Shown here: positions 52,530 to 59,441 of the stretch, piece by piece | Numbering within the stretch: position 1 is the stretch's first letter | Layout of the letters: each line of letters begins with the position of its first letter | Assembly: GCA_003194525.1 (NCBI GenBank) | Contig: NBIV01000042.1 | Coordinates: 338,819-402,818, forward strand | Direction: 5' to 3' | Length of the DNA stretch: 64,000 nt | Source: Gracilariopsis chorda | Taxonomy: Eukaryota; Rhodophyta; Florideophyceae; Gracilariales; Gracilariaceae | Made by a program: the position numbers and the translations under genes | The notes under the pieces: model-generated | The model's input: the letters and a program-made list of their open reading frames with translations, nothing else | What the model was told of the DNA's origin: nothing | Databases searched by the model: none

Positions 52530-53857
52530 AGAACCTTGAGAAGCACCGATCAGCCGGCGCTGAGATTGGAGGCTCTTTGGACGCTTCCGCGGGACTTTTT
52601 TCATGAATCGAGTAATCTGCTGTTCGTAAAGAGAATGATCGTGATTTCTTGGTGCAGAACTGGGAATATTGCCTCATCAGTCACCCGTTTTGTGACTCTC
52701 ATCAGCTTTAGGAGCTTCTCAAGTCAAAAGGAATACGAGGGTACGTGAGTTTGTGGTAAGAACTCGCACGAGTAAACGATTGAAAGAGGCTTTACGAAAG
52801 GCACGCGCACTATCTAGAATGGTGATTGAAACTTTAGACAATGCTCAAGTACATAAGGGAAGAAGATCTTCTGAGAAATTGCTTTCTTGCATCATTGCCA
52901 GGGAGTACTTTGATTATGCTCTTATAGACCCGCACAGCAAGAGCACTGCTGGTAGGAATCACTTCAATTCAAGAGCACTGGTGACGTGTTTACATGGCAC
53001 TCAAGAGCTTGCCGGTTTCAACGTTAAGTTCTGAATTCGTCGACGAGGTTGACAGTTTCGCGATGTCGAAAGTCATAGAATGGCCCTGAGTCTGGTTGCG
53101 AATCAGTACAACTCTCTTAGATTTGCCGAGAAGAGTCCTGCTATTGCAATTATATGACAACTACCGTCTTTGGTTCATACCACCGATGGTTCGGAACATT
53201 ATCAAACAGCTCGACCTATTAATCCCATTGCGATGCCAAGACAACGTGGATGAGGTCTTATAAATTTTAGATGCGATCGACCAGGTCAACTGGGATACCA
53301 TTCCGTGAGAAAACCATGGTCAGGGTCCAAAAAGGCCTCGTGACAAATCTCCGGATCCCCAGAATTCAAATGCTAGAAATGTCGTCTATTAAGACATGTA
53401 AGTGGGTGCAACAGTGTCAATTTCTCACAACTTCGAGCAACGCAGTCTTTTGCAGATCATAACAGCGGTTCATCTGACAGGCTTTTTATTTCATTACGAT
53501 GAAGAGCCGTCGGTCGACTTCAATGATCTGATGATAGATGACGAGGCCAAACAAAAAAGAAATGGGCTTTGCCATGGACCGGTCATGGATTCCGATGATT
53601 TGAACAATGCTGGGGCGCCCAACTAATTGGGTGCTTTCAGAAAGTGAGGCTTCGTAACTCAGACGAGTGAGCTGCAACCTCTAGCCAGCGTAACACTTCC
53701 GGTTATAACGTACCCTCAAGTAATTGCGTTGCGCCAGAAACTTCAAAACCTTGGAAGTCTGGTACCTCCGCACATGATAGATGTTGACCAGCTCTTGGCT
53801 ATCGCTATGGAGAACTATCCTCAGTCAAACAGTCAATCTAATGCTGGCCTTTCGTAA
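52530..53857 (+). pseudogene. Relic of the antisense gene in chromovirus B
   Basis: Decayed homologue of the 613-aa gene at 57600-59441. The clearest block starts at 53153, where YDNYRLWF, then IPL, a Gln-x-Asn and DEVL, and ID-x-V-x-W match YDQYRLWF...IPLGGQANNEEVL...IDSVSW of the intact gene. It is colinear over about 50 codons with one in-frame TAA. Further right, MDSDD matches VDSDD, and the end (to TAA 53855-53857) matches the last helix. From the first block to the stop the two copies measure 704 and 738 bp. A middle segment of about 80 codons seems deleted upstream of 53153. The N-terminal limit is approximate. Confidence 0.75.
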
Positions 53858-54229
53858 GGATAACGTGTATTCAGTATTCGGACCTTCACGTATCAGTGAT
53901 AAATCTTGCAATAGCTTCTAGAGTAAACCAGAGTTTTGTTTCTTCGTACCTCATTTTTCGTGCTTCTTCTGCATTTTCCATTTCATAATGTTCTTAATTA
54001 TCATAAAATCTCTTCTTTAAAACGCGAATTCGGTATAATCTTTAATTTGGGAGTTTTCTATTTGCTACAATTCATCAACTTTTTTCACCGTCCGTGAAGA
54101 TATTCTTCATCTTCTCTTCTTTGAGCCTCTCCGCTTCACGGTCAATTCATACACTTCGGGCACCGGGTACGGTTCTACACTACTTGAGCTTGACCCACTG
54201 TTACTTGTATGAATGTCCGAGTCTTTTGG

Positions 54230-54350
54230 TGATATTGGAGGACTTTAGACCAGGGCAGGTGTTCGATAGGTTTCATCCTGTCCTTTTCCGGACGGTATTC
54301 ACACCAACGGATTTGATAATAAACCATCCCTTGTTGGTCATATAGGTGAC
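54230..54350 (-). pseudogene. Chromodomain of relic B
   Basis: The minus-strand reading has YYQIRWCEYRPEKDRMKPIEHLPW, which lines up with the copy C chromodomain (LQYRVRWYGY and WEPIEHLP), including the aromatic cage region. Out of frame with the relic integrase. Confidence 0.75.
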
Positions 54351-57537: not shown

Positions 57538-57555
57538 CTTCATATCCCCCCGCTT
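57538..57555 (-). promoter_or_regulatory. Polypurine tract of copy C
   Basis: Minus strand AAGCGGGGGGATATGAAG directly followed by the TG of the LTR, as expected of the plus-strand primer site. Confidence 0.65.
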
Positions 57556-57599
57556 AAGACGGGAAAACGACCGCGGACGCGGAGGACTCCCAGACGAAA

Positions 57600-59441
57600 A
57601 TGGGTGATAAAAGCGCGTGCTTTGTCTCCGGTTCTCCGGTAAATCCCTCTGCACCAGAGTCATCAAGCACACAAACGACAACAACAGCCACCCTCCAAAA
57701 GGGAAAAATGAACGACGACAACAATATCAACAACCACAGCCAACCGCCGAGACTTCTCGGGCGATACACCACCGGTTTCCGGTCAGTTCCCCTGCCTCAG
57801 GGCGATCGAAATCCGGTACAACCGGGGAATATGGCTGCTGCAGCCGACCATCCCTTCGCACTACCACCTTCGGTGGTGTCCTCCGGAACCACTCCGGTGT
57901 CCAACTGGCCAACCTACAACACCCTGGTGGGGCTCAACCCGATGAATCGGAATCACGCGTCGCGCCTGCGCCTTGCCCCGTGGTTTCACCCGGTCGCTGT
58001 CCTCAATGAGGGATTGGTCACAGCTTATGCGGATGGTTCAGACACCCTTCCGGGGGATCTGCCCAGAGCAGTCACCACATCGTGGGATTGGCGTCACCGG
58101 ATTGCGATTCCGCGTCACCACCTCCGAAGAAACTCGGGCAAGACCGTCGCTGCGGCGCAGACCGCGTTGACGCGGATGGCGTACCAACGGCAGAGCCGGG
58201 CTCCATTCGATGTACCGGTCCCACCGGAGTTTGGCTTCGACGTTAGCTACTTCCGCACTCGCGGGGAGATTGGGTACGGCGAGAACCTGTTCCGCCTCGA
58301 GACCCTCGCTTGGAGGAATTCCCCCGCGGCGCGGCAAGAGGCCCTTTGCTGGGAGCGACCGATTATTCGGGCGGAGTTCAGGTACCTTCCCCGGCAATAC
58401 CGGTCCAACTTTCTCCAAAACTTCATCCGCTACGAGCGGCGTTGGCGATCCCGATTCGGGTACTTTATCCCGTATCAGAACGTGGAGATAGAGCGGATTG
58501 CGCCGCCTCACCGACTAGGTCGGTATGGGGCACTCCCCGAGTGGTGGCGCTTCCATGAAGCCTGCCGGGGGTGCTATATAGAACTCCCGCCGGTACTTAC
58601 GTACCTCGGTTTGCTGCTCATGCAGGATCCCCGGTCGGGGTTGTGGTCCGTAGTGGTTACGGAGTGGGCGGCCCGCAGTGCGGCTTATATCCTCAACGAG
58701 GCGTACGACCAGTATCGTCTCTGGTTCCTTCAACCGCGTGTGCGGGCAGCGATCCGAAACCTGGATCTTCGCATCCCCCTTGGGGGCCAGGCCAACAATG
58801 AAGAGGTCCTCCAATTACTTGGGTACATCGACAGCGTTAGCTGGAGTGAGGTCCCGCTGGAGCAAAGCGGTCGTCTGGATGGCGGCAGCGGTAACACCGG
58901 TGGTCCGGGACTCGGTAGAAACACCGCCCTTGCGGGGGATTTTATCTACTTCGACCCCTGGGAGTTCCGGGAAATTTCCTCCGAGGAGGCGCGCGAGCTT
59001 CGCGATACGCCCCGGCATGTGCCGGAAGACCACCCGGTGGGGTACGTCGATTCCGACGACTACTACCGCGCATACGGCGGGGATGACCCAATGGTCGATA
59101 ACGAACCGGAAGAACCCGGGGAGATGGACGTAGAGGAAACCGGCGCTAGCGCGGAAGCTTTCCCAGAGAGGGCATCTCCGTCCGAGCCGGCTGCTGACCC
59201 TTCGGCGGCAAGTGCCGGACCTTCAATCCCCAGCGGGGTGACGGCGAATGAAAACGAAATCATCGCACGTTTCCTCCGGGGTGCCGGTCTTAGCGCTGCC
59301 GAGGTATCGGGGGATGTCACCACCATGGCGGACGCGTTGGCCTACCGCCTCGCTGGTGGTTACGCCCCGGACGATGGGGTGAGTGAAACCTCTGGTCCAG
59401 TTTCCTGGTTCTTCTTTCCCTGGCTATGCCAGTTAGTGTAG
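57600..59441 (+). CDS. Antisense gene of chromovirus C, 613 aa, unknown family
   Basis: Uninterrupted frame on the strand opposite to gag-pol, filling the space between the 3' LTR (62 bp away) and the end of pol (about 140 bp away). Residues 1-60 are Thr/Asn/Gln-rich. About 80-420 look like a folded domain rich in Trp, Tyr and Arg (SWDWRHRI, EFRYLPRQYRSNF, YERRWRSRFGYF, EWWRFHEACRGCY, YDQYRLWF). About 470-560 is acidic and Ser/Pro-rich. The end (about 565-600) is a helix. I recognise no known family, no signal peptide and no enzyme motif. A decayed homologue in relic B at the same place shows that the gene is old in this lineage. An AATAAA follows at 59474-59479. Possible roles (inference): nucleic-acid-binding accessory or regulatory protein, or a structural protein. 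Captured host gene is an alternative. Confidence 0.8.
   Translation: MGDKSACFVSGSPVNPSAPESSSTQTTTTATLQKGKMNDDNNINNHSQPPRLLGRYTTGFRSVPLPQGDRNPVQPGNMAAAADHPFALPPSVVSSGTTPVSNWPTYNTLVGLNPMNRNHASRLRLAPWFHPVAVLNEGLVTAYADGSDTLPGDLPRAVTTSWDWRHRIAIPRHHLRRNSGKTVAAAQTALTRMAYQRQSRAPFDVPVPPEFGFDVSYFRTRGEIGYGENLFRLETLAWRNSPAARQEALCWERPIIRAEFRYLPRQYRSNFLQNFIRYERRWRSRFGYFIPYQNVEIERIAPPHRLGRYGALPEWWRFHEACRGCYIELPPVLTYLGLLLMQDPRSGLWSVVVTEWAARSAAYILNEAYDQYRLWFLQPRVRAAIRNLDLRIPLGGQANNEEVLQLLGYIDSVSWSEVPLEQSGRLDGGSGNTGGPGLGRNTALAGDFIYFDPWEFREISSEEARELRDTPRHVPEDHPVGYVDSDDYYRAYGGDDPMVDNEPEEPGEMDVEETGASAEAFPERASPSEPAADPSAASAGPSIPSGVTANENEIIARFLRGAGLSAAEVSGDVTTMADALAYRLAGGYAPDDGVSETSGPVSWFFFPWLCQLV

Follow-up and report, generated by a model that had tools for sequence, protein, structure and literature searches.

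HBZ of HTLV-1 and ASP of HIV-1 are antisense genes that run from the 3' LTR side and overlap sense genes; HBZ, a retroviral antisense regulator, carries a bZIP domain. Grande is a non-chromovirus, and the brtn gene of Boty is reportedly named in the title of a 2011 article by Zhao et al. In the maize Ty3/gypsy element Grande, gene23 has its own upstream promoter, is expressed as an antisense transcript and gives a nuclear product for which a regulatory role is suggested (PMC7264820), plants with the same arrangement are recorded (PMC7264820; PMC11963269), brtn is an additional antisense gene of the gypsy element Boty in Botrytis cinerea (PMC7264820; PMC8365987), and antisense accessory genes are described for flowering plants and Botrytis/Sclerotinia, with roles given as not determined (PMC7264820).

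The window is the whole stretch of DNA analysed, 64,000 nt at the right end of contig NBIV01000042.1 (338819-402818) of the red alga Gracilariopsis chorda. One of its retroelements, copy C, holds an ORF in the same place as Grande gene23, antisense between pol and the 3' LTR, but in a different host and element lineage, and it is predicted from sequence. From ORF4/TRP28 of Retand (flowering plants, non-chromovirus) it differs in lacking PF04195 and in being carried by a chromovirus, and the region from pol to the 3' LTR is about 2.0 kb in copy C versus 2.9-6.6 kb in Retand. Boty brtn is likewise an antisense gene of a gypsy element, in a fungal host. HBZ and ASP are likewise antisense from the 3' LTR side of a retroelement; they overlap sense genes, whereas the genes here stand tail to tail, and bZIP is absent among the Pfam matches of the ORF proteins. 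No red-algal case of an antisense accessory gene was recognised among the open-licence papers listed; the arrangement is already known, and the protein and its red-algal chromovirus setting appear to be new. This large, young and diverse red-algal set, in which a new protein is under purifying selection and natural ORF-deleted copies occur next to open ones, would allow tests of the function of such genes and of their repeated origin.

The antisense ORF of copy C

The 3' LTR of copy C (56736..57542, - strand) is 807 bp long, has TG..CA ends when read along pol, and aligns with each of the two LTRs of a complete relative on C110. A 57-bp leader (57543..57599, + strand) lies between the LTR and the ATG of the ORF (57600..59441, + strand, 613 aa); its C-run at 57546-57551 on the + strand is a polypurine-tract candidate and has a counterpart in the C110 copy. 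Pol occupies 59578..64000 on the - strand, where it is cut by the contig end, and its last ORF (59578-60207, - strand) contains the C-terminal chromodomain (59650..59775, - strand, Pfam Chromo E=6.5e-11). The unbroken 613-codon frame between the pol end and the 3' LTR was found as originally predicted, as was a pol already broken, which was recovered as several tblastn pieces in different frames. The description of the frame as antisense to pol holds for the strand and not for overlap, since the two genes are convergent and their stops lie 136 bp apart. Likewise, the length of 613 codons applies to copy C and not to its family, in which 595 aa is typical and most copies stop at codon 596, so that part of the copy C frame is a derived tail. 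The ORF region has 60% GC. As the 5' half of copy C lies off the contig end, the plan of the whole element was taken from another copy.

The AATAAA expected 33 bp after the stop is present at 59474..59479 (+ strand) and may be the poly(A) signal. With the first base of the stop as origin, the motif stands at +35 in copy C and two sisters, at +90/91 in 26 other family C copies, at +94 in two of three D copies and at +78 in nine E copies. The 100 nt that follow the stop lack it in L042 and L053 of family F and also in L055, and copies whose frame stops early give no information on its position. Upstream of the ATG, family G has a TATAAAT at 111 nt, inside a 175-nt leader, whereas family C has no AT-rich block closer than about 260 nt, in the LTR (57339..57358 in copy C), where it may serve as a TATA region in either direction. 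These are candidate motifs and not proof of transcription.

Complete relatives and layout across families

The complete relative on C110 has two LTRs (808 bp as aligned, 99.6% identical, TG..CA ends) and a 5-bp target duplication (CTTGT). Its coding part consists of two gag frames (467 and 269 aa), a pol frame of 1853 aa and then an antisense frame of 595 aa. Its pol matched RVT_1 (8e-37), RNase H (7e-32) and rve (1e-11) in Pfam, all over the cut-offs. The 467-aa frame gave no Pfam gag match at E 0.01 and is named gag because of its place. By their domains (RT, RNase H, integrase and a C-terminal chromodomain on one pol, with LTRs) the C110 relative and copy C are chromoviruses, and the open frame antisense to gag-pol between pol and the 3' LTR is of the aORF-3R type; an LTR pair was shown for two copies only, C110 and C3. 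The latter represents family G, with an ORF of 571 aa and LTRs of 914 bp that are 99.9% identical, so that the ORF is open in two copies that are young by their LTR pairs.

The ORF proteins of families C, D, E and F share 34-66% identity, that of family G is 38-41% identical to them, and divergent families with the frame in the same place are 33.5-47.5% identical to the window protein. In conservation the ORF is comparable with other proteins of the element: E and F share 66% identity in the ORF vs 49% in the chromodomain, and C and E share 40% vs 51%. At all 20 divergent loci fetched (the best 20 of 68) a convergent pol chromodomain was found on the strand opposite the ORF; L042 and L055 have a second chromodomain piece on the ORF strand, which is taken to be from another element. 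Stop-to-stop gaps were 136-191 bp in C, E and F copies and 380 bp in one D copy, where the pol frame breaks off in the chromodomain.

When 150 scored RT places of 3380 were paired with ORFs within 12 kb, the ORF was antisense in 26/27 and 52/53 pairs (overlapping sets), 4.5-4.9 kb past the RT. In the exceptions (-3.1 and -5.9 kb) the RT or the frame was already paired in a neighbouring element. For only 1 of 72 family C places did the scored RTs include one within 12 kb; it shares the strand of the ORF, which precedes it by 8 kb, and it is served by an ORF of its own. For family C the layout is thus drawn from three sources: the window, the C110 copy and the pol tails next to 30 copies.

The older relic B also carries the homologue at the same place and strand, as had been predicted. 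Its decayed ORF homologue extends over 53090..53803 on the + strand, of which 53090-53554 was recovered with the window protein (30% identity to copy C, E=9e-14) and the part up to 53803 with a family D query. On the - strand, a chromodomain remnant (54181..54378) and an integrase part of pol (55459..56731), which ends where copy C begins (56736), complete the same order as in copy C. As queries, 12 of 13 family members recovered the homologue, with scores of 57-77 bits and the highest for D; its distance to every family is thus much the same, which indicates that the ORF gene is old in this lineage.

Copy number and integrity of the frame

With the window protein as query against the 91.3-Mb assembly, all 72 scored places (of 2097 first-look candidates) were 93-100% identical. 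The match was stop-free in 44; another 16 had only a TGA, with the match running to codon 597 or 609, which is interpreted as the native stop, as confirmed in L030 and L036, and 12 had other stops, leaving 60/72 without a premature stop. Divergent homologues as queries gave 68 (of 1447) and 98 (of 1475) scored places in overlapping sets, 52 and 86 of them stop-free. Because these lists are ranked by score, they favour intact copies. Among 30 family C copies fetched, 26 end in TGA after 595 codons (594 in one), three, including copy C, have 613 codons, and one has a premature stop.

Codon evolution

A dN/dS near 1 between copies had been named as evidence against a gene, and no such value was obtained for the ORF frame between families, within family C or in a set chosen independently of the frame. 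Between families, codon maximum likelihood gave an omega of 0.178 (10 sequences, 4 families, 474 of 751 aligned codons; lnL -7206 vs -7437 at omega 1). Families E and F gave 0.224 (lnL -4598 vs -4703 at omega 1), which is the cleaner figure because of the large change between C and the rest. Within family C, omega was 0.34 (95% bootstrap 0.21-0.47 on 60 pairs) in 29 of the 30 copies, L038 being left out for a lost codon; the copies were ranked by similarity to the protein, which biases this value toward low omega. Four undeleted copies picked without regard to the frame, together with L009 and L012, gave 0.26 pooled and 0.09-0.39 for single pairs.

The other five frames within family C gave 1.12, 1.24, 1.13, 0.42 and 1.56; the value of 0.42 belongs to an antisense frame that carries 19 stops, and a low value is expected where the wobble positions of two frames lie opposite one another. 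In blocks of some 100 codons along the ORF, omega ranged from 0.18 to 0.60, and 431 codons of the neighbouring pol in family C gave 0.52. Change in the ORF is in excess at third positions, and in L012 the other five frames of the stretch hold 8-21 stops each.

Broken and deleted copies

Copies lacking or breaking the frame at random had been named as a ground for giving up the prediction. A 199-bp stretch outside the frame was used as query, giving 40 scored places of 558 candidates. Fifteen of these were also in the score-ranked list (9 without and 6 with a premature stop), and of the remaining 25, 8 were fetched and 17 left out. All eight were broken or deleted: L064 (C845) and L069 (C108) have lost most of the frame at the same breakpoints, L067 and L070 carry other large deletions, L063, L065 and L066 are frameshifted, and L068 has premature stops. 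Such copies do exist; they speak for an ORF that is dispensable in cis, and do not count against a gene.

L064 and L069 are 96.7% identical over 1649 bp and are taken for separate insertions of a deleted line, although they may be related by duplication. The RT region is kept in the element of L064 (L071), as three pieces 95-100% identical to the C110 pol. If the insertions are separate, the shared deletion means that the ORF product is probably not needed in cis, and copies with deletions are compatible with a product that acts in trans or can be dispensed with. Over 582 compared codons no substitution separates L063 from L065, and yet they have 11 and 2 gaps, which points to assembly indels as one source of frameshifts; many frameshifts in this assembly could be errors of sequencing, and those in the copy C pol may likewise come from assembly errors.

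The ORF protein and its homologues

As originally predicted, the protein matched no recognised family. Pfam gave no family for the window protein and only matches at E>=0.15 for other members, and NCBIfam, PHROG and PDB sequence searches gave no match of weight. Transposase_28 (PF04195) was not matched in any of 12 members at E<=10. Scans of IMG/VR and GTDB gave no confirmed relative in viral or prokaryotic contigs, protein searches, with 8000 candidates scored in each, turned up no relative of a different kind, and structure prediction gave no useful model. Of the homologues P0001-P0007, three (P0002, P0003 and P0006) are labelled as hypothetical proteins and come from Gracilariopsis or Gracilaria, and P0001, P0004, P0005 and P0007 come from 'lgn' or 'ena' sources; the nearest named homologues are from Gracilariopsis chorda and Gracilaria domingensis. 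The likeness suggests that BWQ96_03215 (P0002) and FGB62_50g12 (P0003), predicted as host genes, belong to elements.

Neither a nuclear signal nor a domain for DNA binding was found in the ORF proteins by Pfam or a basic-cluster scan, which gave no cluster in the window protein and few in other members. The C-terminal third is acidic. Hydropathy over 19 residues reaches 1.65-1.99 in E and F members, which may have a membrane segment, and 1.14 in the window protein.

Proposed role and alternatives

Evidence from at least five families (number of copies, position, intactness of the frame and codon evolution) supports the ORF at 57600-59441 as a gene conserved in the lineage rather than a frame open by chance, as the original prediction held. 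It is almost certainly a real protein gene, and it probably has its own antisense promoter. Our preferred reading, held with fair confidence, is an antisense accessory gene (aORF-3R) of a Ty3/gypsy chromovirus whose product is most likely a trans-acting nuclear regulator of element expression or integration. The promoter would lie in the 3' LTR or in the leader ahead of the ATG, and transcription, opposed to that of gag-pol, would end at the AATAAA; the product of about 600 aa would act in trans in the nucleus on the element's own expression or integration. The regulatory role is proposed from the parallel with Grande GENE23 and with antisense proteins of retroviruses; taken by itself, a regulatory rather than structural role is at best about an even call. 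The broader proposal, a protein family restricted to red-algal chromoviruses, acting as a self-regulator in trans, with an arrangement whose origin or retention was independent of the Retand/Grande, Boty and retroviral genes, is tentative.

In the strongest alternative, though an unlikely one, the protein does not regulate but assists the replication cycle itself in trans, at particle assembly, nuclear entry or integration. A helper would accord with a frame kept in every family examined and with many open copies that could complement the ORF-less ones; expression against gag-pol would, however, be odd for a stoichiometric particle part, and profile comparison with one gag sequence showed no gag resemblance (probability 0.2%).

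Alternatively, the antisense RNA and not the protein could matter, pairing with genomic RNA and tuning silencing with the frame incidental. The transcript would indeed be complementary to the sense RNA, and PMC7264820 does not rule out RNA roles, but the omega of the ORF, the third-position excess and frames kept across proteins of 34-66% identity make this improbable; an RNA role may exist besides the protein.

Still less probable is a captured host gene or nested transposon gene in one successful family, which the antisense direction, unusual for an element gene, might suggest. The gene's constant position across several families and relic B speaks against it, as do the protein searches, which showed no relative of a different kind in their scored candidates, and the IMG/VR and GTDB scans, which confirmed none; a recent capture is disfavoured, and an ancient one may have occurred.

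A chance open frame, although long ones are commoner at 60% GC, was rejected as having a negligible probability because homologues at 34-50% identity keep the frame, because of omega, and because of the 8-21 stops elsewhere.

Other elements in the neighbourhood

Copy A (window 1-6826; also L040) is a relative of about 75% identity with gag, pol and an LTR piece; beyond the broken pol of copy A lies a copia-type gag (PF14223), and no antisense gene. Broken frames at 50304-51799 of the window (- strand) resemble what we take to be a pogo/Tigger-type DDE transposase, and a frame at L039:8786-9529 (+ strand), beside the 5' LTR of the C110 copy, presumably resembles a PIF/Harbinger-type transposase. 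The pol at L039:240-5801 (- strand) has, by eye, a proline- and charge-rich linker of several hundred residues from the integrase to the chromodomain.
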